A stretch of 33,104 nt of DNA, taken from the NCBI GenBank assembly GCA_902563095.1, contig CACEWA010000014.1, positions 1 through 33,104 on the forward strand. The letters run 5' to 3'. Both the position numbers and the translations under genes were made by a program. The stretch's first letter is position 1; every line of letters starts with the position of its first letter. This stretch comes from an uncultured Candidatus Poseidoniales archaeon (GTDB taxonomy: Archaea > Thermoplasmatota > Poseidoniia > Poseidoniales > Poseidoniaceae). Under the pieces are notes generated by a model, which was not told where the DNA came from, searched no databases, and saw only the letters and a list, made by a program, of their open reading frames with translations. This document shows, in pieces, positions 1 through 23,894 of the stretch.

Positions 1-630
1 AACGGCGAAAACGACAACGATGGTGACGGAATCCCGGACGATCTTGACAATGACGACGATAACGACGGAATTGCAGATGATCTAGACCAGAATCCTAACG
101 ATCACGACAACGATGGCATCGACGACGCTGAAGACAACGACGACGATGGCGATGGAATCGATGACCGCGAAGAGACTCAGGACGGCGATGACACAACCAA
201 CATCTACGACCATGACAATGACGGAATCAACGACGCAGTTGACCTTGACATCGACAACGATGGCATCGACAACCGCAACGACTTTGATGACCTTAACAAC
301 AACGGTGTAAGGGACGCTGGTGAAGACCGAATGCGTGACCATGACAACGATGGAATGGACGACATAGATGATACCGACGATGACAATGATAACATCCTAG
401 ACGTGGATGAAATCGGTGGCGCTACTGGCGCATACCGCTACGACCACGACAACGATGGAATCTGGGACAGCACAGACACAGACGACGATAACGACGGCTT
501 GTCTGACTGGTTCGAAGCTAACGACGGTAACGACCTAACTGGTCAATTTGACCATGACAACGACGGTATTGAAGACCACGTCGACGACGATGACGACAAT
601 GATGGAATCATCGACATCTTCGAAGTTTGA
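1..630 (+). CDS. 3' part of a secreted Asp-rich calcium-repeat (thrombospondin type 3-like) protein
   Basis: The reading frame is open from the first base to the TGA at 628-630, so this is the last 209 residues of a longer protein whose start lies outside the window. It consists almost wholly of Asp-rich units of the form DxDNDGI. I count about 12, with DHDNDGI and DDDNDGI largely alternating. This is the calcium-binding loop pattern of thrombospondin type 3 repeats, in which Asp/Asn side chains ligate Ca2+. The protein ends a few residues after the last repeat, with no membrane helix or sorting signal, so it is probably released or held non-covalently at the surface. The next gene carries the same repeats, which suggests tandem paralogues. 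Calcium binding is inferred from the family and the partner is unknown. Confidence 0.85.
   Translation, partial: NGENDNDGDGIPDDLDNDDDNDGIADDLDQNPNDHDNDGIDDAEDNDDDGDGIDDREETQDGDDTTNIYDHDNDGINDAVDLDIDNDGIDNRNDFDDLNNNGVRDAGEDRMRDHDNDGMDDIDDTDDDNDNILDVDEIGGATGAYRYDHDNDGIWDSTDTDDDNDGLSDWFEANDGNDLTGQFDHDNDGIEDHVDDDDDNDGIIDIFEV
1..630 (+). repeat. Coding tandem repeat, DxDNDGI units
   Basis: Degenerate DNA repeats of the type gaccacgacaacgatggaat recur every 30 to 70 bases. They encode the calcium-loop units. Spacing and sequence vary and the frame is kept throughout, so this is a protein-level repeat rather than a CRISPR or satellite array. Confidence 0.8.
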
Positions 631-853: not shown

Positions 854-3800
854 ATGCTCTCAAAAAGACAATTTGCACAGAAGTTTGAGAACAGACGCAA
901 ATCCACAGTATCTGTGGGTCTTGTGTTCTTGATGATTACAAGTACTTGGCTAGGATTGATTTCTACAATTAATCAAGACTACGAAACTGAGACAAGATTG
1001 GTTGAGGCAGATCCCCTTTTGCTAAGTGATGTACAATCGACCGACCAAGGCGGTCAAGGCGAATGGAATGGAGGGATGCCACCACAGTATGGTCTGCAAA
1101 TGCACGATGCTCTGTGGGATTTGACATGGGCCGATCCAGGTGCTATGTACGGGCAAATTGACGATGTTTCTTCACTTTCCTTGAATGCGAATTACGGATT
1201 AATGCTCGAAGAATCTGGTGCAGATGATCACGATAACGATGGAATTGATGACTTAAACGATCTCGATGATGATAATGACGGAATCTATGATTTACTCGAG
1301 AGATTCGATGGTTGCTATGGAACAGACCCATACGACCACGATAACGATGGAATTCAAGACCACTTAGATTGGGACGATGACAACGACGGAATTCTTGAGG
1401 GGCCAATCGATTATGATGCACTTGAAGCGCAAGGACTAGATCCAAGAAATGTTTCAATGCACAGATTCGTAGACCCTACCACAATTCACCCTCTAACCGG
1501 CCAACCTGTTGGAATTGCATACCGTGCAGACCAACAGCCGTTTGACCATGATAACGATGGAGTTACCGATGAAGATACAGATGGCTCTGGGGCAGGCAGA
1601 TATGACGAAGACGATGATAACGACGGCCGAATTGACCAATTCCGCTGGCCTTGCGACTTTGATAACGATGGCGCCCAAGACTACTTCGACAACGATGATG
1701 ATGAAGATGGCACTCTAGACTGGAACGATGCAAATCCGTATGATGCTAGCATAACAGCAGCTATGGATGGCAGCGGCGCAATGTTCGATGCTCCAGTTAC
1801 ATGGAATTTCAATCAATACAGAATGTACTCTGCCGGTATCAATTTCGTAGATTTAGAAGCAGCAAAGGTTGACGCTAACGACGATTTTGATTATGCAGGC
1901 GGAGAAAATGGAGACGGTGCTGCAGGAACTCCCGCATTCACCACAATCGTCGACGGCGACTTGGATGGAGACGGAATCCCAAATTTCATCGATCCTGATA
2001 ATGATGATGACAATGTCCCAGACAGTTCTGATACCGATGACGACAACGACGGACTTCTCGATATGTACGACCCAGATGACGACAACGATGGAATCCCTGA
2101 CGTATGCTGGAATATCGATACCAACGGCGATGGACTAAACGATTACACTGGATTAAACTCAACTCCTTACCAGACACCTGGTGCGGATACGGACAACACT
2201 CCTGGTCACGACTGTGAGATGGATTATGACGCAGATTTGGACGATGATAGGTTCCGACCATTCGACCAGAATTACAACGGAATTTGGGACTGGCTCGACC
2301 CAGATATGGGAGGGACTCCAACCCCTGACGATGCTGTACAAACACAGTTTACAGCAACAGATTTCGCTTACGATATTGACAATGATCAAATCGAAAATGA
2401 GAACGACACTTACCCATTATCTATGAACTCTGAAGCATGGATTGCAACCTGTATGTCTCCTGCTAATCCGAACCCCCCTAATCCAGACCCTCGATGTTTG
2501 ACTGAAAGAGCATCCTATTCTCAATTCAACGATTGGGACGGCGACGGAATTTCTAACTGGGACGACATTGATGATGACGGCGATGGTATCATTGACATCA
2601 TTGACATCGATTGGGATTGCGACTTTGATAACGATGCTGTATTCCACCAAATCAACGGTAGTTTGTATCGTGACGATGGACCTAACGATGTCGACTCTGA
2701 TATCGATGGCGATGGATTACCAAACGACATCGATTGGGACGATGACAATGACGGACTCAATGATTTGTATGACCCAGATGACGGAAACTGTGGAATTGTT
2801 GATTTCGATGCAACAGATGCTTTCGCAACCCCCTACTATCCAGTGGGCGATGGTGGCGACCTTGATGGCAGTGCTGACAACCAAGATTACACAGATAACA
2901 CCGACAACTATTGGGCACTAGTTTGGAATGCAAACCCATTCGCTGACGTTGTTCTAAACTACAATGGGTTTGATGAAACTACTAACCCGCCTACTGGCGG
3001 AAATGTCCCTGAATTCTATTGGTTCATGTTTACTCGTTGGTCATCATACAATGGTGGTAACGAGTGGGATATCGATGCGGACGGTGACTCTCTAATCAAT
3101 GGATTAGATACTGACCAAGACGCAGACGGTATGCCAGATTGGTGGGACCAAGACGAAGGCAATGACGGACTACTGGATGTTAACGACCTCAAGATGGGAG
3201 GGACAATGGATCTAACACAATGTGGTATGACAGTTGGCCAATTAGGCTCAGGATTCACTTGTGGTTACGCATATGCAGTAGCATATCACATGCCATTAAC
3301 TGGAACCAATGCTAACTTCGGGTCTCCTTACTCAACAAGACCTGATGCAGCCTTTGACCAAGGCGCAGGTGGAAAGAACACATGGGCCTGCACTCCAGGA
3401 GCTCAAGGCGGATGCTGGCACTATGATTTCGGAGGAGATGGCGATGTTGAGAGCGCAATTTCATTCACTCAGATTCAAGATAATAGAGATGCATTCATCA
3501 CATGGATTGGCCTTCTAACAGGAGTTTGGCAGTGGAACTTTGACGATACTGCAAATGCTGCAACTGTTGGGTTCCCTGATGAATTAGGTGCCGACTTATT
3601 GAAGAACGCCGAAGACGGAGACGTTGATGGCGATTTCACCAATAATACAGTCGATCTTGACGAAGATTACGATGCAATCTATGATTGGAATGACGTAGAT
3701 GATGACAACGACGGCGTATGGGACTTCTTTGAAGTCGATACAAACGATGATTTGGACGACGACGCCAATCAAGATTATGGAAACGATTTCTTCACTGGTT

Positions 3801-6800
3801 TGAATTGTGATGACCTTGATGATGATGGAAATGACCAGGATGTTGATGGCGACGGTTGGTTCCAAGCTGTATGGGATAAGGGTGTAATGAGCCAAGGTTT
3901 GAAATCTCCAAAATTCTATGACGTAGACAACGATAATGACGGTGTACCAGATTCAGAAGACCCTGACGACGACAACAACGGCGTCCTAGATTCTGTACAG
4001 GAACTGCAGCCAGGCTGCTTCTCTGGAGAAGAACAACATCCGTTTGACCACGACAATGATGGAATCGTTGATTGGGCTGATGATGACTTTGATGGTGACG
4101 GGATCTCCAATTTAGTCGAGGCTCAAATTTCTATTACCGCTCCATTCGACCATGATAACGATGGAACTCGTGACGATATCGATGTTGATGATGACGAAGA
4201 CGGAATGCACGACGAAGACGAAGTACTACTATGGCCATTAAGATTCGATGCCGAATCTACTAATCCGTGGGACCACGATGACTTCGGTGGAGGATTAGGT
4301 ATTGCTAATCCAAACGACCCTTCTACTGGCCCAGATGCTATCGACAACGATGACGATAACGATTCGAGAGAAGATAACGATTGGGACCATTTGGAAGAGA
4401 ATTATATTTCAGACCCATGTTATGCAGGTTCAGAATCAAGTGATTGGGATAGTGATAACGATTGTATTCTAGATGCTGATGATAAGGCTCCAACTTACAT
4501 TACTCTAGACATTCCAGACACACTTTGGCTAGATGCGCAAAGCCCATCGATTTTCAGAGGGCATGTCGACTGGTTGAATCCGATAACTTCTGCCTATGAG
4601 TCAGCACCAGGATTGCCTGTTCAAGTTCACATTGAATGGACTGGAAACAATACTACTGCTATTGAAACGATCGATGTAATTACCAATATGTGGGGTAACT
4701 TCACAGTTGGCCAATTCTTGTATCCAGAAGATTTGGTAGTAGGTGATAACACCACATACCGAGTATATGCTGAAGTTACTGAAATGTTTGCTTTCAATGG
4801 AAACCAGTCCCAATCATACTATGTTGGTGCTGAAGCAAACATGACGGTGGACTATTCGGCTTGGACTTACTTCCGCAGCGATGAACAGCCTTTCTGGATG
4901 GATTTCAAGGCTCACTATGCTGCAGATTGGACTCGTGGATTGTACGATAACAGAATCATACATTCCCCAATTAGTTTCGAAATTACAGGCGGATTGTTTG
5001 GTAATAGAACAAACCCATCTAACTTCTCTGGATTCAATAACGATGGATACAGAACCGATAGTGACGGATGGGCGTCTTTGACATTCGTACAGAACCTAGG
5101 AGCTAATGGTACTTGGAAGCAAGTTCAGTGGAATTCTACTATGGACAACGGACAAGGACAGATACCTGGTGGTTACGAGGAAATCGTATGGAACGATTTG
5201 ACCAAGACTCACGATGTTCTAATCGATAGTAGCACCGGAATGCCACTACGCTATGATTACACGAACACTAGCCTGCCTGCAGGAGATATCGAAATCAAAG
5301 CATCAGTAATTCCAGAATTAGCTGACGAATGGCCATTCCCGTATCTACATGGCGATTCTTCAGACCCATTCTCTGTACGTGTTATGCACCGCATGAACAT
5401 CGAAGGAGAACTGACTGTCAGCGGGCTATCCGCGGTATACTACTGGGATGGAACAATCAATAACGGAGATGGAACCTTCGGAAATTGGGCTACATTATTC
5501 CACCAACAGGCATTGAATGCTGCAGGAGTTAGCTTCGAAGAAGCCAAGGTTTTGCGACCATATCCAAGCCTTTGGGACGGAATTCCAGATAATTTACCAG
5601 GCGAGGCAATCAATCTACGTGGTTTCTTATCAGTGAACACAACTCATTGGTTCATATCTTTGGTCAATGGTGGAGATGGAGACTTACCTCCTTGTGGGCA
5701 AGTTAACCCTACAGATCCTTCAAGCCCAATTAGATGTGAGATCGTTCCAGAAATGAACACTGGAGAATCCTTCGGTGTTCGTGGAACTGTAACAAATCGT
5801 ACAAATGACGCTTGGGACCAAGACCCAATTGCTTTGCAGGTCGATATTGACGGCAATGGGCAATTCATGGGAAGTCAAGAGACAGCGTACACTCAGCGTC
5901 CAATAATGAAAGACGGAGAGGCAACTTTCGAGTACAATTGGACTTGGTATAGCCAGTATACTGCAGGAACTTACGGTATACGTGTGGACTTTACTAACAA
6001 TGCTTACTACTTCACTGGTAACTCAACTAACCTTGCAGCTACAGGTGCTTACATCAACGTGACAGTAGTCGGAACAACCCAGTTCCAGATGACGAGTGTT
6101 CCAAGACTGTATCGTAACACTACGACAGTTATTGAGGCAAGATTGCTAGATAACTCATTGCAACCTCTACGCAATGCTCCTGTAACCTGGACTTGGTCTT
6201 ATGATGGTAGAAGTGGTGTAAATTACACCGACGACCTAGGGACTTTCTCGATACCATTCCAAATCAATCCAGAGGATTCTCTTGGGAATTATTCTCTACA
6301 ATTCGATTACGAAGGTAACCGGTTGATGAAAGGAAATATCGACAGCCAAAGCGTATGGGTAGTTTCTCGTACCTATGTAAATGTAATTTCTTCAGATGAA
6401 AATATCCGGCAATCGGGTGACAGATGGGATTTCACTGCACAGGTTACGGATGATAACAAGACTGTAACGATAAGAGACTCTGGTGGCCGAGAATTGAGCG
6501 GCGCAACAACGCCAAACGGCGGACTAGTCGATGTCATCTATGAAGGACTAGACTTCGAAGGAGTCATGCACAGGCAAGTTGTAGCAACCTTGGCACCTAA
6601 CGCTGGTTTGATTTCTCTACCTGAACCTCAGGCCGATGGAAGCCACCTCTGTTTCTATGATGGAAATGGCGATGGAATCCCTGACCGCGACTCCAATGGT
6701 AATGGACAACTCGACGACTCAGAATCAGTTGGATGTTTGAAGGCGAATGTATCTCCACTATCTCCGCAGATTCTACGTGAAGACCCAGACAGTTTCCTAC

Positions 6801-8740
6801 CTGATGGATTTGGACCTGTATCTGTTTACCTAAGATTCCGTGAGACTCTACCGAATGAAGGCTGTGAAGTCTTAGAGGTAGAATACTTGACAATGCAAGG
6901 AAAGTGGGATCCATGTGTAGATGTTGTTGGAAACGATCACTTCAGAGTACAAATGGCATACAATGCAAATGGATTCTCCTTGATTGGTAGAACTTCAATG
7001 GATGTAGATGACCAGATTGTATACACCAGCGAAATCGACCCATTGACCGGAGAGGTTGTTCCTAAGCCAATGGTGGTCACAGGACAACTAACCGACGAAT
7101 TAGGAACCAACTTAACGTTCAGAAATGTCCGTGTCAACTACGAGATGGTAAACAGTCCTGCGGGACCGGTTGCATGTTTCAATGGAATCACCGACATTAA
7201 CGGTAGATTCGCAATAACATGTCCACTGTCTGACGTATTAGCAGGTAAAGCTAGAGTCACTGTAACCTATTCTGCATGGGATAACAATGATGCTTACCGA
7301 TACCAAAACAAGACTGTACAAACCGAGTTTGATGTATTCAGCAATTCAACATTACAGATTGCTGAAGTTGGACCATTCAAGTCTAGCGTCGAAACATTCG
7401 TTGCACCAAATAATGGAAGCGCATTCCCTGTTCTTTACTTGAAGGAAAGTTTCCACATCGATGCGATTCTAACACAATCCAATGGACAATATGTTGGAGG
7501 AAAGTGCCTGAATATTTACCTCGACCCTCAGAAGAACGTACGCCCTCTATCGAGTATCTACACAAGAGAATCCGATGGAATGGTTGAATGGTTCAGTGGA
7601 GATCCGAGTCAGAACCCTGGTTTGAAGGGAGTTGAAACAACCGGTGGGGAACTTGAAGGATTCAGATTGCTAAGAGTTGCATTTGAACCAGACATCAACG
7701 TCCCAGGCGGATGTGATAAGGATACTAGCAATGTATTGAATGGTTCACACATGGATATTGTAGTTCTAGTAAGAAGCAGAGTCGATCTACAGGTAAAGAC
7801 CTCTTGGTCATATGTCAATAACAACGGATTGGACACTAATGACAATGTTCACGGAGAAATTGCACTATTGCGCGACAGGTTAGACCTAGCAGTTGAGAAC
7901 GAAGAGATATTCTTCATCAGAGAATACTGGGACTCCGACTCGATGGAATGGGTTGTAGAAGGCCGTAATGAGTCATATACAAACGAACAAGGTGTTGCCT
8001 CATTCGATTGGGCTTTCTCCGGTAGAACTTGTGAAGGAGAACCATGTTCGGGAGACTGGAGAATCAAGGCCTACTATCCTGGTTCCACATTCTTCGCAGA
8101 GTCTAGTGATAACATTACTCACGAAGTACATTACATGAAGGCAAAGGTTAGTGACCAAAGTGACGGAATCTTTACTCCGACCACGATTATGGCGCTGGTT
8201 ATTGTTCTATTAGGAGCATTAGTTGCTGGAGTGATGTACTATCAACGAGTTGTAGCAAGACGCCAAGTTGAAGCATTGCGCGGTATACTAACCGACACAA
8301 TGCTACAGTTGCAAGCTGCTAACGAATACATCGCAATCATCTTCGATTGTTACAAGCAGTTAGTCAAGCACTTCCGCCGACATGGATTCATGAAGAAGGT
8401 TTACGAAACCACACGTGAATTCGAGAGCGCAGTTCGTGGAGCATTCCACATGGTTCCTGCAGACCAGTTGGATGCATTCATCGCAATCTTCGAAGAAGCA
8501 CGCTATTCAGACCACGAGATTGGCCCAAGCCACCGTGATCGAGCAATTGCAACTCTGAATGAGATTACGAAGAGCCTTGCACTTGCTCTTGGCGATGGTG
8601 GTATGATTACTCGTACAGAAGCGCATGAAGCTAAATTGTATGGCGGTCTTACCAAGGCTGGAGAATTCGTAGCAGCAGACGGCACAGTCAAGCAGGCCGG
8701 TATCGACGAAAATCAAGACAATTCAAATTTCAAGATTTGA
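854..8740 (+). CDS. Giant anchored surface protein with calcium repeats and cytoplasmic DUF4129-like domain
   Basis: This protein has 2628 residues. A basic N-terminus is followed by a hydrophobic segment at about 20-40 (signal or anchor). Residues 125-1210 hold dozens of DxDNDGI thrombospondin type 3-like calcium units, broken by short Cys- and Trp-containing inserts. Residues 1210-2430 look like a string of beta-sandwich (Ig/carboxypeptidase-regulatory-like) regions, with one more calcium-type stretch near 1936-1956. A membrane helix at about 2440-2464 leads to a basic stop-transfer and some 160 cytoplasmic residues. That tail, with YKQLVKHFRRHGF, ETTREFESAV and FEEARYSDHEIG, resembles DUF4129, a domain otherwise found at the C-termini of membrane proteins such as transglutaminase-like ones. 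The ATG at 854 is preceded by ggag. The likely role is adhesion or substrate contact at the surface; function and partners are unknown. Confidence 0.9.
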   Translation: MLSKRQFAQKFENRRKSTVSVGLVFLMITSTWLGLISTINQDYETETRLVEADPLLLSDVQSTDQGGQGEWNGGMPPQYGLQMHDALWDLTWADPGAMYGQIDDVSSLSLNANYGLMLEESGADDHDNDGIDDLNDLDDDNDGIYDLLERFDGCYGTDPYDHDNDGIQDHLDWDDDNDGILEGPIDYDALEAQGLDPRNVSMHRFVDPTTIHPLTGQPVGIAYRADQQPFDHDNDGVTDEDTDGSGAGRYDEDDDNDGRIDQFRWPCDFDNDGAQDYFDNDDDEDGTLDWNDANPYDASITAAMDGSGAMFDAPVTWNFNQYRMYSAGINFVDLEAAKVDANDDFDYAGGENGDGAAGTPAFTTIVDGDLDGDGIPNFIDPDNDDDNVPDSSDTDDDNDGLLDMYDPDDDNDGIPDVCWNIDTNGDGLNDYTGLNSTPYQTPGADTDNTPGHDCEMDYDADLDDDRFRPFDQNYNGIWDWLDPDMGGTPTPDDAVQTQFTATDFAYDIDNDQIENENDTYPLSMNSEAWIATCMSPANPNPPNPDPRCLTERASYSQFNDWDGDGISNWDDIDDDGDGIIDIIDIDWDCDFDNDAVFHQINGSLYRDDGPNDVDSDIDGDGLPNDIDWDDDNDGLNDLYDPDDGNCGIVDFDATDAFATPYYPVGDGGDLDGSADNQDYTDNTDNYWALVWNANPFADVVLNYNGFDETTNPPTGGNVPEFYWFMFTRWSSYNGGNEWDIDADGDSLINGLDTDQDADGMPDWWDQDEGNDGLLDVNDLKMGGTMDLTQCGMTVGQLGSGFTCGYAYAVAYHMPLTGTNANFGSPYSTRPDAAFDQGAGGKNTWACTPGAQGGCWHYDFGGDGDVESAISFTQIQDNRDAFITWIGLLTGVWQWNFDDTANAATVGFPDELGADLLKNAEDGDVDGDFTNNTVDLDEDYDAIYDWNDVDDDNDGVWDFFEVDTNDDLDDDANQDYGNDFFTGLNCDDLDDDGNDQDVDGDGWFQAVWDKGVMSQGLKSPKFYDVDNDNDGVPDSEDPDDDNNGVLDSVQELQPGCFSGEEQHPFDHDNDGIVDWADDDFDGDGISNLVEAQISITAPFDHDNDGTRDDIDVDDDEDGMHDEDEVLLWPLRFDAESTNPWDHDDFGGGLGIANPNDPSTGPDAIDNDDDNDSREDNDWDHLEENYISDPCYAGSESSDWDSDNDCILDADDKAPTYITLDIPDTLWLDAQSPSIFRGHVDWLNPITSAYESAPGLPVQVHIEWTGNNTTAIETIDVITNMWGNFTVGQFLYPEDLVVGDNTTYRVYAEVTEMFAFNGNQSQSYYVGAEANMTVDYSAWTYFRSDEQPFWMDFKAHYAADWTRGLYDNRIIHSPISFEITGGLFGNRTNPSNFSGFNNDGYRTDSDGWASLTFVQNLGANGTWKQVQWNSTMDNGQGQIPGGYEEIVWNDLTKTHDVLIDSSTGMPLRYDYTNTSLPAGDIEIKASVIPELADEWPFPYLHGDSSDPFSVRVMHRMNIEGELTVSGLSAVYYWDGTINNGDGTFGNWATLFHQQALNAAGVSFEEAKVLRPYPSLWDGIPDNLPGEAINLRGFLSVNTTHWFISLVNGGDGDLPPCGQVNPTDPSSPIRCEIVPEMNTGESFGVRGTVTNRTNDAWDQDPIALQVDIDGNGQFMGSQETAYTQRPIMKDGEATFEYNWTWYSQYTAGTYGIRVDFTNNAYYFTGNSTNLAATGAYINVTVVGTTQFQMTSVPRLYRNTTTVIEARLLDNSLQPLRNAPVTWTWSYDGRSGVNYTDDLGTFSIPFQINPEDSLGNYSLQFDYEGNRLMKGNIDSQSVWVVSRTYVNVISSDENIRQSGDRWDFTAQVTDDNKTVTIRDSGGRELSGATTPNGGLVDVIYEGLDFEGVMHRQVVATLAPNAGLISLPEPQADGSHLCFYDGNGDGIPDRDSNGNGQLDDSESVGCLKANVSPLSPQILREDPDSFLPDGFGPVSVYLRFRETLPNEGCEVLEVEYLTMQGKWDPCVDVVGNDHFRVQMAYNANGFSLIGRTSMDVDDQIVYTSEIDPLTGEVVPKPMVVTGQLTDELGTNLTFRNVRVNYEMVNSPAGPVACFNGITDINGRFAITCPLSDVLAGKARVTVTYSAWDNNDAYRYQNKTVQTEFDVFSNSTLQIAEVGPFKSSVETFVAPNNGSAFPVLYLKESFHIDAILTQSNGQYVGGKCLNIYLDPQKNVRPLSSIYTRESDGMVEWFSGDPSQNPGLKGVETTGGELEGFRLLRVAFEPDINVPGGCDKDTSNVLNGSHMDIVVLVRSRVDLQVKTSWSYVNNNGLDTNDNVHGEIALLRDRLDLAVENEEIFFIREYWDSDSMEWVVEGRNESYTNEQGVASFDWAFSGRTCEGEPCSGDWRIKAYYPGSTFFAESSDNITHEVHYMKAKVSDQSDGIFTPTTIMALVIVLLGALVAGVMYYQRVVARRQVEALRGILTDTMLQLQAANEYIAIIFDCYKQLVKHFRRHGFMKKVYETTREFESAVRGAFHMVPADQLDAFIAIFEEARYSDHEIGPSHRDRAIATLNEITKSLALALGDGGMITRTEAHEAKLYGGLTKAGEFVAADGTVKQAGIDENQDNSNFKI
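1225..4480 (+). repeat. Coding repeat region, calcium-loop units
   Basis: This stretch encodes the long run of DHDNDGI/DDDNDGI units in the giant protein. Units are often paired (DHDNDGIxDxxDxDDDNDGI) and separated by inserts of very different length. The DNA copies have diverged at third positions, which argues for old duplication under protein-level selection. Confidence 0.75.
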
Positions 8741-11030: not shown

Positions 11031-11072
11031 GGAAGCAATGTATTGATGGTAGATGAGGCTTTACATGCCAAT

Positions 11073-14000
11073 ATGAGAAACCGTTCTTTGTTGCTAGCAG
11101 CCTTAATCACCCTCTCTTCTTTGTCGGTGGTAATCGCAAATGATACGGTCACAACACAAGATGTCGATTTATCTGGAAACCACACTATGACCGGGAATTA
11201 CACGGTTTCTCACGGTACTACTCTAACAATCAAACCAGGTACAACAATCGACATGCAGAATTATTGGATGGAAGTAGAGGGAACTTTGATTGCAAATAAT
11301 GCCACCATTATGTCTTCAATCCAAACAACCGGTCTAGGTTCTCACAATGCGGGAGTGTGGGATGCACTGACCATAACCTCAATTGGTAGTGCGATCCTTG
11401 ATAATGTCACAATCTCAAACGCAAAATCTTGCATGATTATTGATGGTACGCTAACTGCAAAATCTCTAGTTATCGAGGATTGCTTGATAGGTATCGAAGT
11501 TGATGGTTCTGCAACTATCGATGATGCAACCATTAGCCATGTGGATCACGATGGAATTCGCTCAACAGGTAATTTAGACATCACAGCAGCAACTATCGAT
11601 GATGTTTCAGCAGGAATTCATTCCAGTGGCGACATGGTGTTATCAGATGCAACATTCAGTAATGCTGGTGTTGGCATCGCATTAACTGGAGGTACTGCTG
11701 ATGTAGAAGAACTAGACTTCACAACAGGGGTTGGAAACGCACTAACTATCTCCTCTGGAGTTACTGGAGATGTGGATGGAATGGAAGGAGATGCCACCAA
11801 TGCAATCGTATCCGTCGATTCGACAGGGTTCACTGTATCAAACATCGATATGTCTGGTGAGAGATTGGTTAACTCATGGTCTGCTGGCGATTTGACAATT
11901 TCTGACGCCGCTTTTTTTGCAGATAGCCCTGAGACGCCCATCGATTTGAGAACATCAGGAACTGTAACTCTATCCAATATTTCTCTGACAGGACAGTTTT
12001 CTTCGGGTATGAATTCCTACGATGCTCCGTGGATTGGGGTGGCGCTTGCTGGTAGTGGAGATTACCTCGTAACCTCATCGCAAATAGAAGCATCAGATTC
12101 TGCACTCAAAGCCTCTGGTACTGGAACTCTATCGATCACAGATTCGTTGTTTGAATCTGATAGACTTGGGCTATCCTTTTCTGGAATCTCAGCAACGACT
12201 CTGGACTCTGTGGTAGTTAACATTTCGACAGGTGGAGAAAAGGGAATTGATATTCTTCAAGGAGCACACACATTCTCCGACTTGCACATAAACATGCCAT
12301 TCAATCAATTTGAATCCGGTAGTACGGGAATGGAATCCTGGTGGTGCAATATCGATGCTGAAGACATTTCAGTAAGCGGATTTGCAAATAGTATGATGGT
12401 ACACGAATCCATTCTACAATCCGACGATTTAACGCTGTTGGATTCTAGTGAACAGGGATTGTATAGCAGCTCTTCATCAATCCATGTTTCAGATTCCTTG
12501 GAAACACGAGTATCCGATAATGGATTGGTAATGGTTTCATCTAGTGCAGTATTGAGAACTTGGTCGTCAAGTTTCCACGAGGAAGCCGGAGTCATAGATT
12601 CGGAATCCGAAGTTACAGTCTGGTCTTGGACATCCGCAAGCAATCTAAACTCAGATTCAACCGGGGATGGAATTCTAAATTACGGAACTAGCCAAACTCT
12701 CAATTTGGCTACAACTACCAACAACCGCCTTTGGGAGATGACAATTAATTTTGAAGATTTAACAGGAAATCCAGTCGATGCAGATTGGCAAGTTCTAGGA
12801 TTTAGCGGAACAGCAAACAGCGGAAGTGCAGTATTGCCTGTTAGTGAAAGCGGGTCACAAATCACTGCAACATATGCAGGAGTTGGCGCATTATCCTCTC
12901 CAACGGGCATTCAAGGCGGTTCTCACACAATGCAAGTTCCAATCATGCCACAAGGGGATTGGGCTCTTGGTGCTGGTTCTGTAGTAGTCCTGGGCCCAAC
13001 TGAAGATGGCTCCCCACACACTGCTGGAGGCAACATTACAATTGCATCCAATGCTCAATTGATTCTCCAGCATACTAGTTTAGAAATCCCTGAAACCGCA
13101 TCCCTAACAGTGAACACATTAGGGGATTTCGAGGGAATAGATTCACAATTCTATGGAGACGTAATTTCTCATTCAGACCTGTTCAGCGATTCGATGAGTT
13201 CTAATCTAACAATAAATGGAGATGTTCTTTGGACATCCTGTCAAAGCGACATCACGTTGTATCACCTACACATCGTTGGCGATGTTCAATTGGATAATTC
13301 CTGTAAAGTTACAATCAATTCGGGTAGTGTTTCAAACGTAACTGTAGGGGTTGGCGCATCACTGGAAATAGTAAACACTCTACACGTCTCAGTTGTTGAC
13401 AAAGGAGATGCTGTCCAAGGCGCAACAGTAACAATCGATGGACAAAGCGTATCGACGGATTCTAATGGCGAGGCTAGCAAATCAACCACTGCTTTGCGCG
13501 TGGATTCTAGTGGAACAATAGCAACTGGGCTAATGCAGGTAGAAATGCAATGGGGGCAGATTACCGATTTGATGGCCTGGGACACATCGAGTTCTATGGA
13601 GCACACATTCATTGCATCTACAATTGATGGAGGCACTCTAGACGAGTGGCTAATTCTTGAAAAATTGTGGAGCCCATATCACCTGTCAAGCGATTTGGTC
13701 GTGCCACAAGGCGAAACAATGACAGTCAACGATGGTGCACATTTACGCATCGCAGATCAAGTAACAATTACTGTTGAAGGCACATTCAACTCTGGCTATT
13801 CTACAATCTCATCAATGGGAGGAGGAGCAAGATGGGGTGGATTATTAGTTGGTGATAATGCTGAAACTTCAGCACAGATTTTGGGAACTAGTTTGGTAGA
13901 AGGCTCACCATTAATGACGATTAACGGAGATGCTGATGTTGTATTCAGTCATTCATCTCTAGCGCGCTCGAGTAGTGCAGAACCACTATTGCGTACAACT

Positions 14001-15641
14001 AATTCAGCTCAAGGAACCTTGCACATTGCATCGACAACCTTCACCGATTCAGCAGCACACTGCTTCGAGTCTCAAGGTTCGATTTCAATAGTAATGGAAA
14101 ATGTGGATATGCAAAATTGCCATTCAGACGCAATCTGGGCACAAGGAGTTGGTATGGAGATTGATGGATTGACTGTAACGGACACGGTCAGTTTAGGTGC
14201 TGTTGAAGGCTATTTGTCGAACCTTGATGGAGCAGGCTTAGTTGTAAATAATCTCGATGGATTCGAAATGAATGAACTAGACCTGACTTCTTTGAATGGT
14301 ACTGATAACCGGGAGGTTATCATTGACACTGTTAGTATCAATGGCGCCCCTGCTATTGATTTGGATAATTCTGCAGGCAGTTTGTCGAACTTGAATATTG
14401 ATTGTGGAGGAAGTGGAACTGGTATTACTGCTCATCATGGCAGAGCTTCAGCATCGCTAGTCGTTTCCGATTCTACAATCTCTTCCTGTACGAAGGGAGT
14501 AGATTTGCACACTGATGGAGAATCGGCGCCGATGATTCTAATGGATGTTGATATCGAATCATTAGTTGCTATTTCTAGCGATGGGGCCTCAATTATGGTT
14601 TACGATGGAACGCTAAATGGCTCAGTTGACGTAGACTCTGCCATAGCCAATCTCTATGATGTATCACCAACATCGGAATCTACATCATTTGGGGAAATCA
14701 GAATATGGTCTACACACATCTTCGACGTAAGGCTTGATGGAAATTCTCAAGCAGCAGACCTGTTGCTTGAAGTAGAGGATTATTGGACCGGAACTGCACA
14801 AGGAAGCAGTATCCAAATAGCGTTACCAACAAAGGTTGTAGACGACACAGGGGAGCAAGATTTCTCAACGGTTAGAGTCATTGCTTCAGCACAAAATTTG
14901 CCAGATACAGATTCTAATTTTTCCTTTGGAATTAGCGAAGGTGATGTCATTCAAGTTGACATGATTGGCAATCAAGCACCCGAAGTAGAGATTATTATTC
15001 CAGATGATGGATTTAGAATTATGGAAAGTTTACCGATTGAGATTAGAGCGGTAATCAGCGATGACCTAGATGCCAATGCAGATTTAGATATTGTATGGAG
15101 CGTAGTAGTTGGTCAAACCGAAATGATGCAACTTTCGGGCGAGTGGAATAACATTACAGATCTTCCTGCGGGATTCTATGTTCTGTCGCTAGATGTCACC
15201 GATACACAAGGTAAAACCTCTAGCGATTCACTTAGTTTCGAAATTACCCTTTTAGATTCAGATGAAGATTGGAGTTTAACTTGCAATTCTGAAACCTGGT
15301 TTGATAAAGAAGAAAACTTGTATTGTGGGCCAGATATCTATGATACGGATGACGACAACGATGGCTCATTGGACGTTCGGGATGCGTGGCCTTACGACGC
15401 ATGTGCTAGTATTGACACAGACAATGACGGACAGCCTGATGACTTACATTGCCCATTAGGAGTAACGACCTGGCTTACCGTAGACCCGGATGATGATGGA
15501 GACGGGATCCCAGACATCTCGGAAGGAACAAGTTCAGGTGAAGACTCAGAGAGCAGTTCTATTGGAACTGTGTTATTTGTTCTTATTTTCCTTGGAGCAG
15601 CAGCGTTCATGCTGATGCGTAGGAAGCAGGACGTGCAGTGA
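11073..15641 (+). CDS. Large beta-helix surface protein with calcium-type repeats and C-terminal anchor
   Basis: This protein has 1522 residues. MRNRSLLLAALITLSSLSVV is a clear signal peptide, which supports the ATG at 11073 over in-frame TTG 11043 or ATG 11046. Most of the chain shows Ser/Thr/Asn-rich strands of the type xLxIxxxTxxNxxxGI that are typical of right-handed parallel beta-helices, as in pectate-lyase-like and NosD-like folds. An Ig-like region follows at about 1310-1410, then two calcium-type Asp-rich stretches (DTDDDNDGSLD and DPDDDGDGIPD) and a C-terminal helix (about 1495-1516) ending in RRK. It is probably outside the cell and membrane-anchored. Beta-helix folds may bind or cleave polysaccharides, but no catalytic residues are assigned. 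It overlaps the next gene by one base. Confidence 0.85.
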   Translation: MRNRSLLLAALITLSSLSVVIANDTVTTQDVDLSGNHTMTGNYTVSHGTTLTIKPGTTIDMQNYWMEVEGTLIANNATIMSSIQTTGLGSHNAGVWDALTITSIGSAILDNVTISNAKSCMIIDGTLTAKSLVIEDCLIGIEVDGSATIDDATISHVDHDGIRSTGNLDITAATIDDVSAGIHSSGDMVLSDATFSNAGVGIALTGGTADVEELDFTTGVGNALTISSGVTGDVDGMEGDATNAIVSVDSTGFTVSNIDMSGERLVNSWSAGDLTISDAAFFADSPETPIDLRTSGTVTLSNISLTGQFSSGMNSYDAPWIGVALAGSGDYLVTSSQIEASDSALKASGTGTLSITDSLFESDRLGLSFSGISATTLDSVVVNISTGGEKGIDILQGAHTFSDLHINMPFNQFESGSTGMESWWCNIDAEDISVSGFANSMMVHESILQSDDLTLLDSSEQGLYSSSSSIHVSDSLETRVSDNGLVMVSSSAVLRTWSSSFHEEAGVIDSESEVTVWSWTSASNLNSDSTGDGILNYGTSQTLNLATTTNNRLWEMTINFEDLTGNPVDADWQVLGFSGTANSGSAVLPVSESGSQITATYAGVGALSSPTGIQGGSHTMQVPIMPQGDWALGAGSVVVLGPTEDGSPHTAGGNITIASNAQLILQHTSLEIPETASLTVNTLGDFEGIDSQFYGDVISHSDLFSDSMSSNLTINGDVLWTSCQSDITLYHLHIVGDVQLDNSCKVTINSGSVSNVTVGVGASLEIVNTLHVSVVDKGDAVQGATVTIDGQSVSTDSNGEASKSTTALRVDSSGTIATGLMQVEMQWGQITDLMAWDTSSSMEHTFIASTIDGGTLDEWLILEKLWSPYHLSSDLVVPQGETMTVNDGAHLRIADQVTITVEGTFNSGYSTISSMGGGARWGGLLVGDNAETSAQILGTSLVEGSPLMTINGDADVVFSHSSLARSSSAEPLLRTTNSAQGTLHIASTTFTDSAAHCFESQGSISIVMENVDMQNCHSDAIWAQGVGMEIDGLTVTDTVSLGAVEGYLSNLDGAGLVVNNLDGFEMNELDLTSLNGTDNREVIIDTVSINGAPAIDLDNSAGSLSNLNIDCGGSGTGITAHHGRASASLVVSDSTISSCTKGVDLHTDGESAPMILMDVDIESLVAISSDGASIMVYDGTLNGSVDVDSAIANLYDVSPTSESTSFGEIRIWSTHIFDVRLDGNSQAADLLLEVEDYWTGTAQGSSIQIALPTKVVDDTGEQDFSTVRVIASAQNLPDTDSNFSFGISEGDVIQVDMIGNQAPEVEIIIPDDGFRIMESLPIEIRAVISDDLDANADLDIVWSVVVGQTEMMQLSGEWNNITDLPAGFYVLSLDVTDTQGKTSSDSLSFEITLLDSDEDWSLTCNSETWFDKEENLYCGPDIYDTDDDNDGSLDVRDAWPYDACASIDTDNDGQPDDLHCPLGVTTWLTVDPDDDGDGIPDISEGTSSGEDSESSSIGTVLFVLIFLGAAAFMLMRRKQDVQ

Positions 15642-16180: not shown

Positions 16181-16990
16181 TCATTCCTCAGAAGAGGAAG
16201 CTTTGGTGTCCATGGTTGCTGCATACCAGACCATCATACCGAATGCAGTCTTGTTAACTACGTCAGCGATGTTGTATAGTATGTTCAAACCATCAGTATT
16301 GTCATACTGCTGGCCGAGGACGAAACCAATTGGATAGATTGCCCAGCCAACTGTTAGAATCAATGCCATCGCTTTGAAAGCAAATTGTGTACCTTCGCTA
16401 GCTTTGCCGACACTTTCCTTGGCTTCTCCCTTCCAAATCTCGTACATGATGTAGACCCATGCTGCACACCCTAGGACGAACAATGGCCAAACCATTCCTT
16501 CGCTTATCCAGCCGATGTTTTCTTCAGATTCTGCAAGGAATCCTGTTACTAACATGACAATTGAAGCTGCGAACAATCTCCAGAACAGTGCTGCTGTTGC
16601 TACACCTACTGCTGCTAAAATCAGATAAAACTCTGAAACTTGTAGAGGAACGGTGATCAACCAATCTACATACCTCAATACCAGAGGTGATTCTGTAGTT
16701 ACAGACCAGTGTTCACGCATGTAAGTGTAATGGTACCATGCGACACCTGTAACAAGTGCAGCAACGGTCATGGAAGTTTTCCACTTTGCGTCTACGTTAT
16801 TTCTCTCAAGAACGAAGAACACTGTAGATGCAAGCATCATAGCGGTTGCAAGCCAGAAAGATACAGCTACCATGTCGGTCGGATCTAATGCTGCATCCAC
16901 CTCTTCTGCAGACACTGTCTTGATAGTCAGCAGTGCAAGTGTTCCCAATATCAAAAGGCTCGATGTTCTAGTTAGGTTAGAAGATTTCAT
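16181..16990 (-). CDS. Proteorhodopsin-type light-driven proton pump, blue-tuned
   Basis: This is a 269-residue seven-helix retinal protein with an N-terminal signal peptide (cleavage near residue 28). The helix C signature RYVDWLITVPLQVSEFYLIL gives proton acceptor D109, T113 and donor E120, the DTE set of proteorhodopsin pumps. H87 in YHYTYM matches the conserved His next to the acceptor. K247 in ADVVNKTAFG is the retinal Schiff-base lysine. Q117 falls at the spectral tuning position (105 in the reference proteorhodopsin), where Gln gives blue absorption. The ATG at 16990 is preferred over an upstream TTG. The gene is single, 65 bases behind an ABC exporter gene. No retinal-synthesis gene lies in the window. 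Confidence 0.96.
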   Translation of the reverse strand: MKSSNLTRTSSLLILGTLALLTIKTVSAEEVDAALDPTDMVAVSFWLATAMMLASTVFFVLERNNVDAKWKTSMTVAALVTGVAWYHYTYMREHWSVTTESPLVLRYVDWLITVPLQVSEFYLILAAVGVATAALFWRLFAASIVMLVTGFLAESEENIGWISEGMVWPLFVLGCAAWVYIMYEIWKGEAKESVGKASEGTQFAFKAMALILTVGWAIYPIGFVLGQQYDNTDGLNILYNIADVVNKTAFGMMVWYAATMDTKASSSEE

Positions 16991-17013
16991 CAATTTATGG
17001 CCATATTGGTTAG

Positions 17014-19385: not shown

Positions 19386-20804
19386 ATGGCCGGAGAAGAG
19401 CGAATCAAGTATCTGGCCGATGCGGTCAGATATCATCGAGAATTGTACTACAATCACTCCGCTCCTGAAATCTCGGATGCTGAGTTTGACGCCCTTTGGG
19501 ATGAGTTGAAAGATTTGGATCCCAACAACGCAGTATTACACGAAGTGGGCCCCGAACCCCTTCCTGGTACTGAAAAAGTTGAGCACATGTTTCCGATGCG
19601 TTCATTGGATAAGGGAACTTCAGATGATGACATTATCCACTTTGTAACCCAATCAACTTTCGGTGGCAAAAGATATCTCGCACAACCTAAATTGGATGGT
19701 TCTGCACTATCTTTGGAATATGTCGCAGGTAACCTCTACAGGGCAGCCACAAGGGGCAGTGGGGAGAGAGGAGAAGATGTTACACTGAATGCCAAACTGG
19801 TAGCAAATGTTCCAACTAGATTGAACTCACCTGTTGATTGTCATGTGCGCGGGGAAGTGGTTATGCCGCTAGCTGTGTTTGAAGAAAAATACAGAGACAT
19901 ATCACCAAATCCTCGTAATCTGTGCTCTGGGGCATTGAGGCAAAAACACGGGGATGGAAAGGCCGATGCCTCAGATTTGGTTTTTTGTGCATATGATGTC
20001 AAATTCCCAAATGAAAGCCCAGATACGGTAAACGATAGCGAATTACTTTCATGGCTACAAGGAGTAGGAATCGAACCTGCTCCATGGGAGATTTTTTCTT
20101 CCGAAACTCCGCAAAAAGAGATGATTGAATACACTTCGAAATGGGGCGCTAAACGAGCGACTTACGAATATGAAATAGATGGAATTGTATTCAAATTAGA
20201 TAATTTAGAACAGCGAGAAAATCTCGGTATGACCGCCCACCATCCCCGATGGGCCCTTGCATGGAAATTCCCTTCACAAGAAGCACACTCCGTGCTATTA
20301 GGGGTAGATTGGCAGACTGGAAGGACCGGTGCTGTGACTCCAGTAGCTAGAATAGCTCCACAAATGGTTGGCGGAGTAACGGTAGAAAACGTGACTTTGC
20401 ATAATGTTGGTGAAGTCGAACGGCTAGGTATCAAGATCGGCGACAAGGTGAAAATTACTAGAAGAGGCGATGTGATTCCTAAAATCATTGAAAATTTAGG
20501 TGAAGCGTCGTTAAGTGACATGCAGAACCGATATCATGCGGATGGGAGGAAATTCAGCGCAGAGTTATCCGTCCAGAGAATTCAGATTCCGAAAGATTGT
20601 CCTGCATGCGGCAGAAACTTGGTAATGAAAGGTGCATTTTTGCGGTGTATGTCGTTAGAATGCGATGCAAGAACCGCACGAGCGTTGACCTATTGGTGCA
20701 GAACGCTAGAGATGGATGGAATTGGAGAGAAGTTAATCGAAGCATTGCTCGATAATGGTTTAGTCAAAACAATCGCAGATTTGTATAGATTAAGTCATTC
20801 ATAA
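19386..20804 (+). CDS. ligA: NAD-dependent DNA ligase, N-terminal fragment (interrupted by in-frame TAA)
   Basis: These 472 residues correspond to the first two thirds of LigA. In order come domain Ia (RYHRELYYNHSAPEISDAEF) that binds NAD+, the adenylation domain with catalytic K102 in PKLDG and ATRGSGERGEDVT, the OB fold (GRTGAVTPVARIAPQMVGGV), and the four-Cys zinc finger (CPACGR and CMSLECDA). The frame then meets TAA at 20802-20804 within the first helix-hairpin-helix part, at a point where LigA proteins carry an ordinary residue between ADLYRL and NLERMG. The same frame resumes directly behind it. LigA is essentially bacterial, so transfer into this archaeal lineage is likely. The fragment alone would lack the DNA-binding HhH and BRCT domains. 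Confidence 0.93.
   Translation: MAGEERIKYLADAVRYHRELYYNHSAPEISDAEFDALWDELKDLDPNNAVLHEVGPEPLPGTEKVEHMFPMRSLDKGTSDDDIIHFVTQSTFGGKRYLAQPKLDGSALSLEYVAGNLYRAATRGSGERGEDVTLNAKLVANVPTRLNSPVDCHVRGEVVMPLAVFEEKYRDISPNPRNLCSGALRQKHGDGKADASDLVFCAYDVKFPNESPDTVNDSELLSWLQGVGIEPAPWEIFSSETPQKEMIEYTSKWGAKRATYEYEIDGIVFKLDNLEQRENLGMTAHHPRWALAWKFPSQEAHSVLLGVDWQTGRTGAVTPVARIAPQMVGGVTVENVTLHNVGEVERLGIKIGDKVKITRRGDVIPKIIENLGEASLSDMQNRYHADGRKFSAELSVQRIQIPKDCPACGRNLVMKGAFLRCMSLECDARTARALTYWCRTLEMDGIGEKLIEALLDNGLVKTIADLYRLSHS
20802..20804 (+). other. In-frame stop codon inside ligA
   Basis: The TAA lies between AGT CAT TCA and ATT TCC AAT with no frame change, and the conserved sequence continues on both sides. A single substitution from CAA, AAA or GAA would explain it. 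It may be a true nonsense mutation, a sequencing or assembly error, or a recoded codon. Confidence 0.9.
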
Positions 20805-20822
20805 ATTTCCAATTTGGAAAGA

Positions 20823-21398
20823 ATGGGTGATAAAAGCGCGTACAACGTACTCGATGAACTTGGTAAAACAAGAAATTTGAATTTAGCAAGATTCCTTCAT
20901 GCGCTAGGAATGGAAAGAATCGGGCCAGAGGTTGCTACGACAATTTCTCAACATTTCACTTCAATGGAAAAAATGCTTCTTTGGGTCGATGAAGGAGAGA
21001 TTGATGAACTTACAATCATAGAGGGGATTGGTGAAAAAGTCGCTGCTATATTTAGAGATGGAATCAAAAAACGTAGAAGTTTGATTGATGATTTGTCTGA
21101 AATTATTACAATAACCGATGAAGCAGAATCTGCAACAGGAGTATTCGATGGCAAATCATTCTGCATTACAGGTTCACTCTCTCGCCCTCGCAAGGAAATA
21201 GCACTTGCAATCAAGAATTCTGGCGGAAAGGTGGTTGGAAGCGTGAGTGGCAATCTCGATGTTTTGGTAGCAGGGGAGAGGGCAGGAAGTAAATTAGCAA
21301 AGGCAGAATCTCTGAATGTTGAGGTTTGGAGTGAAGAAAAATTGTTCAACAAGATTTCAGAACCGAAAAAAGGACCCAAGACACTGTTTGAATTCTGA
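20823..21398 (+). CDS. ligA: NAD-dependent DNA ligase, C-terminal fragment (HhH and BRCT)
   Basis: This fragment continues LigA in the same frame as the upstream part. It holds the NLERMG/KSAYNVL helix-hairpin-helix segment, FLHALGMERIGPEVA, IIEGIGEKVA, and a complete BRCT domain (GVFDGKSFCITGSLSRPRKE to VEVWSEEKLF). Read through the stop, the whole gene spans 19386-21398 and gives about 670 residues, the normal LigA length. If translated separately, it could begin at the ATG at 20823 with the purine-rich ggaaag just upstream, giving 191 residues. That separate translation is possible, but a recent interruption or a base error is the simpler reading. Confidence 0.85.
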   Translation: MGDKSAYNVLDELGKTRNLNLARFLHALGMERIGPEVATTISQHFTSMEKMLLWVDEGEIDELTIIEGIGEKVAAIFRDGIKKRRSLIDDLSEIITITDEAESATGVFDGKSFCITGSLSRPRKEIALAIKNSGGKVVGSVSGNLDVLVAGERAGSKLAKAESLNVEVWSEEKLFNKISEPKKGPKTLFEF

Positions 21399-21443: not shown

Positions 21444-23894
21444 ATGCGTCTGAAGTTAGCATCACTTCTGTTAGTGTCTATTTTGCTGGCATCAACTGTT
21501 CCAACATCAATTGGATACAGCAATGGAATATACAACCGCGGTAGTAGCGGATGCAATTGTCATGGTTACAATGTAGTAACTGTGTCAATGAGCGGCCAAC
21601 CAGCGTCATATAATCCTGGGACTACATACACTTTACAGATTTCAGTTAGTGGTGGTGGATCTGGTAATGGTGGATTTAGCTTAGATGTGAATAAAGGGAC
21701 ACTATCAACAGGTGGCGTTGGAATTATGGCCGTGAAGGTGAACTCTGCGGCAGACAGCGCAACACACACCACGAACAGTTACCGTAGTTGGAGCGTAGAT
21801 TGGACAGCACCTTCCGCAGGTTCAGGCTCTGTACAGTTCGACCTATCAGCGGTTGAAGCAAATGGCAATGGAGGTACAGGAGGAGATACTTGGGGCGATA
21901 CGACGATCACAGTACCTGAAGGCGGAACTCCGCCGTCTAACAATCCTCCGTCAGTATCCTCTGTGCTTTTGAGCCCCGCTAATCCAGTTACTACTGATAC
22001 ACTAAATTTGACATATACTTTCCAAGATTCTGATGGAGATTCAGAATCTGGAACTATGATTAGATGGTACAAAGATGGAATGTTAGAATCTTCTAGAAAT
22101 GATCAAACTACAGTTCCATCATCCTTGACTTCTAAAGGAGAGTCTTGGAATGTTACAGTCACTCCAAGCGATGGAACAGACGATGGTAATCCTGTACATT
22201 CATCGAGCCTAGTAGTTGTGAACTCGATTCCTTTTGTTAATTCGGCAGAAATCACTCCAACAGATGCTTTGGAATCAGATGATTTAACACTAATTCACTT
22301 ATCTTCAGATGCCGATAATGATATCGTAGCAGTCAGCGATACTGAATGGTATGTGGACGGTTCCAAGGTTTCAGCATTTGATGGTGATACGACAATACCT
22401 TCCGTTGCAATTCGAGATGGAGATGTTTGGTATGCTAAGATCAGAGTCAATGATGGGGAGGTAGACAGCGACTGGTTTACAACACAAGACATCACAATTG
22501 GTAGCGATAATACGCCTCCAACAATGGTAAGCGTATCTATTTCCGGAGGCCCGTACACGACAACAGATGATTTACAAGCAACTGCGCAAGCTACCGATGC
22601 TGATAACGATGCTTTGACCTATGAATGGGATTGGCCCGCAACAAATGGCGCAGTTTCATCATCAACATTACCTTCATTTTACACAGAAAAGGGAGAATCC
22701 TGGACTGTAAGATGCAGGGTTACTGATGGAGTTGTATATTCAGATTGGATGGAAAGTAGTGCAGTAATTATTCAAAACTCAGCCCCGGTACTGAATGAGT
22801 TGAGCATAGATCAAGAAACCGTATTCTTCGATACTGAAGCAACTTATTCCTATGACGCTTCTGATGTAGACGGAGATACACTTTCCACTTCAGAAACCTG
22901 GGATTTAACTGGAGATATTTTGACTCTGACCCTATCCGTATATGATGATGAAACGGCTTATTCCAATACATTGAGCGATACAGTTCAAATTGTCAATTCA
23001 TTACCTACCGTTTCGTATGATGGTCCAACAACACAAAGCGCTTTGATTCAACTCAATCCAACTCTGCAATCCAATGATGCAAACGGTGACATGGTCACTA
23101 CATCATGGCAATGGATGAGAAACGGATTCATGACCGATGAAAATGGAAGCACTATTTCTGAAATTAAGTTGGGCGCAGGAGATGTATGGACTGCCATGAT
23201 AACTCCTAACGATGGTCAGGACGATGGGCCTGTATTGGTAATCGATTTCACAATTTCAAACACAGCCCCTACTGCGAGCATTACCGCTCCAGAATCTCTA
23301 ATCAGTGGAGTAAATGCTACCTTTTCCGCAATGGATTCTACCGATGTTGATGGTTCAGTAGTAAATGCAATTTGGAGTATTGATGGTATAGTAATGCACA
23401 ATGGAATGACTTTCACAACTCCCATGTCAGAATATTTGAATTTGCAAGTCAAAGTGATTGATGATTTAGGTGCACACGATGTTTATTCTGAAACCTTTGA
23501 AGGAGTAGAGCCTCCGTTCGCAGAGGATGTAGAAGCTAAATTGGAAGGCAGTGATGTAGTTATTACATGGAAACAAGATGTTGATGGTACAACAGCAGAC
23601 GAGTGGGCGGTATTCCACAACGAACAACTTCTAGGCACTACACCCAATCTTGAATACCGTCATTCCCCTACATTGGAAGGAGAACATTCCTACATTGTAG
23701 TGGCAGTTGTTGATGACCAGATACCTCCACCGCTGACAGGTTGGGCAACTTCATCAGATTCAGTCGAAGTCAGTTCGAGTGTAGTTCCCGAATCTCCTGG
23801 GCCTAGCGATACTGCAGGATTAATTTTCAGCATCATTTTGTTGCTGGTCGGATTAACTGGTGTGATATTTTCATTCATTCCTAGGAGGGATTGA
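21444..23894 (+). CDS. Anchored surface protein with CxCH motif and Ig/PKD-like domains
   Basis: This protein has 816 residues. The signal peptide spans about 1-24 and is followed at once by SSGCNCHG (C37, C39, H40). Residues 45-155 look like a Reeler/choice-of-anchor V-type beta domain. Several Ig/PKD-like repeats follow (NNPPSVSSV, DNTPPTMVSVSISG, NTAPTASI and so on), then a fibronectin-like stretch and a C-terminal helix at about 785-810 ending in RRD. In choice-of-anchor V-like proteins the corresponding N-terminal position often carries a CxxCH heme c site; here only one residue separates the cysteines. The next gene starts directly after the stop, with aggagg at 23883-23888. Heme, metal or disulfide roles cannot be told apart from sequence. 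Confidence 0.82.
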   Translation: MRLKLASLLLVSILLASTVPTSIGYSNGIYNRGSSGCNCHGYNVVTVSMSGQPASYNPGTTYTLQISVSGGGSGNGGFSLDVNKGTLSTGGVGIMAVKVNSAADSATHTTNSYRSWSVDWTAPSAGSGSVQFDLSAVEANGNGGTGGDTWGDTTITVPEGGTPPSNNPPSVSSVLLSPANPVTTDTLNLTYTFQDSDGDSESGTMIRWYKDGMLESSRNDQTTVPSSLTSKGESWNVTVTPSDGTDDGNPVHSSSLVVVNSIPFVNSAEITPTDALESDDLTLIHLSSDADNDIVAVSDTEWYVDGSKVSAFDGDTTIPSVAIRDGDVWYAKIRVNDGEVDSDWFTTQDITIGSDNTPPTMVSVSISGGPYTTTDDLQATAQATDADNDALTYEWDWPATNGAVSSSTLPSFYTEKGESWTVRCRVTDGVVYSDWMESSAVIIQNSAPVLNELSIDQETVFFDTEATYSYDASDVDGDTLSTSETWDLTGDILTLTLSVYDDETAYSNTLSDTVQIVNSLPTVSYDGPTTQSALIQLNPTLQSNDANGDMVTTSWQWMRNGFMTDENGSTISEIKLGAGDVWTAMITPNDGQDDGPVLVIDFTISNTAPTASITAPESLISGVNATFSAMDSTDVDGSVVNAIWSIDGIVMHNGMTFTTPMSEYLNLQVKVIDDLGAHDVYSETFEGVEPPFAEDVEAKLEGSDVVITWKQDVDGTTADEWAVFHNEQLLGTTPNLEYRHSPTLEGEHSYIVVAVVDDQIPPPLTGWATSSDSVEVSSSVVPESPGPSDTAGLIFSIILLLVGLTGVIFSFIPRRD

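Follow-up and report, generated by a model that had tools for sequence, protein, structure and literature searches.

The window, the whole 33,104 nt stretch of DNA analysed here, forms contig C14 in a genome from the Poseidoniales (marine Group II) that is incomplete (63 %). Close to its start it carries a gene for a giant surface protein, with the end of a companion gene upstream. The features assigned to this locus, with the evidence used, were:

1..630, + strand: 3' portion of a secreted companion protein of the Asp-rich/TSP3 type, truncated by the contig start (conserved upstream ORF)
854..8740, + strand: giant surface protein, paralogue A, 2,628 aa (one open frame)
902..970, + strand: N-terminal signal sequence, aa 17-39 (hydropathy; N-termini of relatives)
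1154..4603, + strand: Asp-rich repeat ectodomain, aa 101-1250, with 35 DxDxDG loops, Ca2+ binding likely (motif counts)
4604..8158, + strand: Ig/MG2/CarboxypepD_reg-like stalk, aa 1251-2435, with many N-glycosylation sequons (weak sub-threshold Pfam matches, sequon counts)
8159..8257, + strand: transmembrane helix, aa 2436-2468 (hydropathy, structure model)
8348..8557, + strand: DUF4129 domain, aa 2499-2568, modelled as a helical bundle (Pfam match, structure model)
8579..8737, + strand: C-terminal extension, aa 2576-2628, for the most part modelled with low confidence (structure model)

The first-pass annotation had described a large ectodomain connected by one helix to a DUF4129-like tail, and this layout was confirmed. 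The DUF4129 model PF13559 matched aa 2499-2568 of the whole giant with an E-value of 1.3e-8 and 35.2 bits, and the tail alone with 41.5 bits, both above the Pfam cut-off of 24.8. This was the sole Pfam match of the giant at E 0.01, a transglutaminase core domain being absent at that threshold, and NCBIfam held no family for the protein. Hydropathy indicated only two segments, the signal sequence at aa 17-39 and the transmembrane helix at aa 2436-2468. Lysine and arginine made up 12.8 % of the tail (aa 2496-2628) compared to 2-8 % of the outside regions, so the tail is predicted to lie inside. The DUF4129 domain is thus predicted to follow the transmembrane helix on the cytoplasmic side, in agreement with the placement originally proposed.

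In the structure model of the tail the transmembrane helix ran on into a cytoplasmic helix, with a helical bundle after it (mean pLDDT 75, pTM 0.60, 50 rows, the final ~45 residues being mostly of low confidence). Searches with this model using Foldseek and VIA-align returned generic helical bundles only and no informative structural match. Comparison of the tail with solved structures gave nothing convincing, the best hit (E 0.0075) being a helical stretch of an EF-hand protein, and the Asp-rich part had no match among solved structures at E 0.01. A structure model of the Asp-rich region itself (aa 101-1250, 35 rows) was unusable, with a mean pLDDT of 34.6, and was discarded.

The Asp-rich region contained 35 DxDxDG-type motifs, compared to a mean of 3.0 and a maximum of 9 in 2,000 shuffles of aa 101-1250, and from their composition these loops would probably bind Ca2+. 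The excess agrees with the initial description of the repeats as thrombospondin type 3-like, although the Pfam TSP3 models (PF02412, PF18884) did not score above cut-off on giant A itself. A second secreted Asp-rich ORF was found 109-471 bp upstream of A in 40 A loci where it was visible, a count that omits loci with a hiding antisense ORF or a contig end; the full-length companion of one relative (L041, 486-2045) passed PF18884 (TSP3_bac). Asp-rich repeats yield long antisense open frames, such as one of 2,255 aa in L061, and real genes are consequently hidden by an artefact of longest-ORF calling. By eye, a hairpin with a TTCG loop was seen at 690-721 of the window, between the companion ORF and the giant. 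Perfect stems of at least 7 bp occurred in this gap in 25/40 A loci, the window not among them, and such hairpins suggest that the companion and the giant may be separate transcripts.

Several other genes in the window were recorded. Positions 11043-15641 encode an apparently secreted protein of 1,532 aa with a C-terminal transmembrane helix and no Pfam match, which is a conserved neighbour of A loci in Group II (cluster c10). About 7 kb separate the giant from a bacteriorhodopsin-like gene (16181-16993, - strand; PF01036, E 5e-45). The NAD+-dependent DNA ligase (19386-21398) appears as two same-frame ORFs of 472 and 194 aa separated by an in-frame stop, which may reflect either an error in sequencing or disruption of the gene; in L053 and L054 it is intact, as one ORF of 707-712 aa. 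In each of two adjoining, apparently secreted proteins (21444-24995), a short CH motif rich in Cys lies close to the N-terminus (GCNCHG, CAGSCH).

The distribution of the giant was determined from PF13559 matches, which were present in 141/145 of the same-family genomes searched and in 82/155 genomes drawn from the phylum. Two matches were found in 34 of the 40 Poseidoniia of the phylum draw. In the Group II loci read, the two paralogues were distinguished by length (A about 2,580-2,730 aa, B about 2,940-3,030 aa), and in the listed loci by DxDxDG loops (31-40 in full-length A orthologues, 13-19 in B). In most loci read, including the window, the A gene was upstream of a small conserved gene and the ribosomal protein genes L18e, L13 and often S9. 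The window giant is paralogue A of two giants that occur throughout marine Group II. In a contig scan for relatives, the best 80 of 547 confirmed places were nearly all from Poseidoniales; the group assignment of the window is based on named relatives such as L171, the MG-II chromosome CM001443.1. A record titled as a Rhodobiaceae bacterium (L103) contained a Group II A-type locus and is probably mis-binned.

Comparison of the paralogues and of more distant DUF4129 proteins showed the tail to be the part held in common. BLASTP aligned A and B only at aa 2466-2575 (34.5 %), and matched the tail in eight of nine other DUF4129 proteins; the ninth, L064, aligned in the Ig region only, and in L057, L058, L073 and L077 the Ig region aligned with the giant besides the tail. 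The DUF4129 domain was the most conserved region or tied for it, with identities of 0.67 in A and 0.63 in B, while the transmembrane helix was among the least conserved (0.34 in A, 0.23 in B). Conservation of the tail in both paralogues alongside divergence of the helix suggests a cytoplasmic constraint on the tail.

Twenty hand-chosen loci outside or near Poseidoniia (L061-L080, including one MGIII locus) were also compared. At least 14 DxDxDG motifs were combined with DUF4129 in 11 of them, which represent eight families. Nine of these motif-rich proteins, all but L061 and L069, were compared with shuffles, and each exceeded all 300. The remaining proteins had few or no such motifs, and one (L066) was only 273 aa and had no large ectodomain. 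The suggestion that the combination is a lineage-specific invention was too narrow. The design is universal in Poseidoniia, but its occurrence in eight or more further families within the phylum indicates that it is not a marine invention. Phage records gave no match to the tail. The L061 tail as query matched two plasmid records, both from Streptomyces, and on a Streptomyces plasmid a 325 aa DUF4129 protein is encoded in the order DUF4129-gene-MoxR-DUF58, as in archaea. This shared order with a small DUF4129 protein supports an exchangeable outside part and a tail serving the machine.

The first-pass annotation had noted that MoxR ATPases often accompany DUF4129, and this association held outside Group II rather than in the window. 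MoxR (PF07726) and DUF58 (PF01882) were searched for in 36 genomes, picked mostly for DUF4129 and including 27 from outside Group II, and both were present in all 36. For the 27 genomes, 38/50 DUF4129 genes were at most 6 kb from MoxR and/or DUF58 and 29/50 were that close to both, with at least one linked match in 23 genomes; the 12 matches with neither gene within 6 kb included some at contig ends. The usual order was DUF4129-DUF4350-MoxR-DUF58-membrane protein. Nine loci had DUF4129-DUF4350-MoxR(-DUF58) in order, three lacked MoxR between and one lacked a recognised DUF4350. The first four ORFs of the series often overlapped or abutted, for example in L056, L058, L077 and L079, and the intervening gene was DUF4350 in all three proteins tested with Pfam. 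The fifth gene, after DUF58, encodes a multi-pass membrane protein of about 300 aa that is divergent but related between sets.

The composition of this cassette bears on what kind of protein the giant is. A mechanical or ligand-sensing receptor, as initially proposed, with the DUF4129 tail signalling via MoxR/DUF58, would account for a single helix between the very large ectodomain and the conserved bundle in the cytoplasm, particularly as the helix is modelled running unbroken into the cytoplasmic part. The conserved cassette, however, showed no kinase, cyclase, methyl-acceptor or DNA-binding partner, and DUF4129 proteins span a range from 273 aa without a large ectodomain (L066) to giants, which would be odd for a dedicated sensor. 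With no signalling domain in either the tail or the AAA+ ATPase/DUF58/DUF4350 cassette, which published work interprets in terms of secretion or assembly, the receptor proposal gained no specific support and we regard it as very unlikely. Alternatively, the giant may be part of a secretion or assembly apparatus, such as an outer scaffold, rather than its client. Its gene directly precedes DUF4350-MoxR-DUF58 in relatives, and Ig-like S-layer proteins are included in the apparatus as drawn by Makarova et al. (PMC5898192), but its size and repeats would seem more in keeping with a fibre for coating or adhesion than with a component of a pore, and a role in the apparatus is considered quite improbable.

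Co-occurrence also indicated a dependence of DUF4129 on DUF58. In the 155-genome phylum draw, DUF58 was present in 81/82 DUF4129-positive and 16/73 DUF4129-negative genomes (Fisher p 2e-26, uncorrected for shared ancestry), and outside Poseidoniia the corresponding numbers were 41/42 and 16/73. The lone positive genome without DUF58 (G230) was counted as positive through a frame of 77 aa that matched weakly. A tail profile run on the 16 DUF58-positive, DUF4129-negative genomes found no convincing DUF4129, with one weak match at E 0.002. The dependence between DUF4129 and DUF58 therefore runs one way.

Within Group II the cassette genes were dispersed. Neither MoxR nor DUF58 was among the 19 window ORFs given to Pfam, a set that took in only part of the small ORFs, and no cluster of MoxR, DUF58 and DUF4350 with the giant was found among them; on the upstream side this covers the locus only as far as base 1, where the contig starts. 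A search of the window's whole genome gave a single MoxR and a single DUF58 match, both on contig C1. No cassette genes were near a giant in the nine Group II genomes compared, and the closest cassette-giant distance in the single-contig genome G011 was about 290 kb. The genes instead formed two sets, a linked set of DUF4350-MoxR-DUF58-membrane protein (L081, L086, L090, L091, L096) and a split set of DUF4350-DUF58 (L083, L085, L088) plus a lone MoxR (L082, L084, L087, L092); in the incomplete genome of the window, only the split set was found. DUF58 was in two copies in 39/40 Poseidoniia examined. The presence of the partners in two copies away from the giants explains the empty neighbourhood in the window, and since two giants are matched by two DUF58 genes the partner numbers agree.

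Trees of MoxR, DUF58 and DUF4350 each contained two well-supported Group II clades, with no firm tie of either clade to A or B. The A tail grouped with tails from operons including L077, L114, L141 and L166 (87/93), also near the linked DUF58 set, which is suggestive of the linked MoxR/DUF58 set going with A. Profile correlations for the A/B assignment were 0.88 versus 0.79 for DUF58, 0.79 versus 0.81 for MoxR; for DUF4350 they did not reach significance.

Dispersal would fit a giant that is a structural coat protein or adhesin whose DUF4129 tail is an ancestral anchor only, with no present MoxR/DUF58 work on the tail in Group II. Among eight A orthologues, conservation of the ectodomain comes close to that of the tail (0.53-0.60 versus 0.67 for DUF4129 in mean pairwise identity), and thrombospondin genes of Poseidoniales have been discussed as adhesion factors (PMC6461757). 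A mere anchor would not readily account for tail identities of 0.63-0.67 in both paralogues against 0.23-0.34 for the membrane helix, nor for the retention of a second DUF58 gene across nearly all Poseidoniia examined, and this explanation is considered unlikely.

To our knowledge, DUF4129, DUF58 and DUF4350 are widespread families without an assigned function, and we know of no client for most MoxR/DUF58 operons. Where the DUF4129 gene so plainly encodes a surface giant, as in this family, it offers both a candidate client and a testable handle, and the giant is a probable envelope component of uncultured archaea that are abundant in the surface ocean. No earlier description of an Asp-rich/DUF4129 giant was found in the open-access papers searched. 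The observations comprise the domain layout, a conserved tail as the shared element, the cassette of relatives, co-occurrence across genomes and agreement in copy number. From these we lean towards an explanation, held to be moderately probable, in which the giant serves a MoxR/DUF58/DUF4350 envelope machine as client or surface subunit and is docked to it by the DUF4129 tail, a handle on the cytoplasmic side. The giant would be a single-pass, extracellular, probably calcium-stiffened cell-envelope protein. Its tail would dock a MoxR AAA+ ATPase along with the DUF58 protein that partners this ATPase. These two, working with DUF4350 and the multi-pass membrane protein, would see to the export, folding, assembly or upkeep of the giant at the cell surface. 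We infer that the tail contacts MoxR or DUF58 directly, that the machine uses ATP to act on the giant, and that the giant has a surface role in adhesion or an S-layer-like coat. A MoxR protein, MoxR1, has been reported to interact with the exported protein RipA (PMC12067865). More tentatively, DUF4129 might be a general handle for MoxR/DUF58 machines gripping surface proteins, with the Group II giants as the main envelope fibres, each with a dedicated, relocated MoxR/DUF58/DUF4350 set.

For comparison with known systems, the vWA family of Makarova et al. was taken to be the DUF58 family, the two partners in the PA2875-PA2874-tgpA operon of Pseudomonas aeruginosa are presumably MoxR and DUF58, and the C-terminus of TgpA is assumed to be DUF4129. 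Makarova, Galperin and Koonin (2015) predicted that archaeal MoxR, vWA and DUF4350 proteins form a complex for secretion or membrane remodelling together with Ig-like S-layer proteins (PMC5898192). The present system is similar in having DUF4350 (arCOG01314), MoxR, a vWA-type partner, and Ig-like surface and multi-pass membrane proteins in one neighbourhood, and differs in its DUF4129 and Asp-rich giants, of which the sections consulted make no mention (PMC5898192). In the table of that paper, arCOG01314 was marked as absent from most of the Thermoplasmata then examined (PMC5898192). To that prediction we would add the DUF4129 tail as a handle held in common, a surface subunit in the form of the Asp-rich giants, occurrence throughout Poseidoniia and the dispersal in Group II.

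The P. aeruginosa operon likewise co-transcribes an outside-domain membrane protein with two partners; unlike the repeat-rich giant with its one helix, TgpA has a transglutaminase as its outside domain and six predicted transmembrane helices (PMC3507681). The bifidobacterial PFNA operon (pkb2, fn3, MoxR, DUF58, tgm) also places a large secreted adhesion protein beside MoxR and DUF58, but its FN3 surface protein is separate from the transglutaminase-type protein and a Ser/Thr kinase is present (PMC8430577). Finally, the giant resembles thrombospondin type 3 repeat proteins in its serial DxDxDG loops, as does the companion ORF of a relative in passing the bacterial TSP3 model, and is distinguished from them by irregular loop spacing, interrupted by inserts with conserved Cys and Trp.
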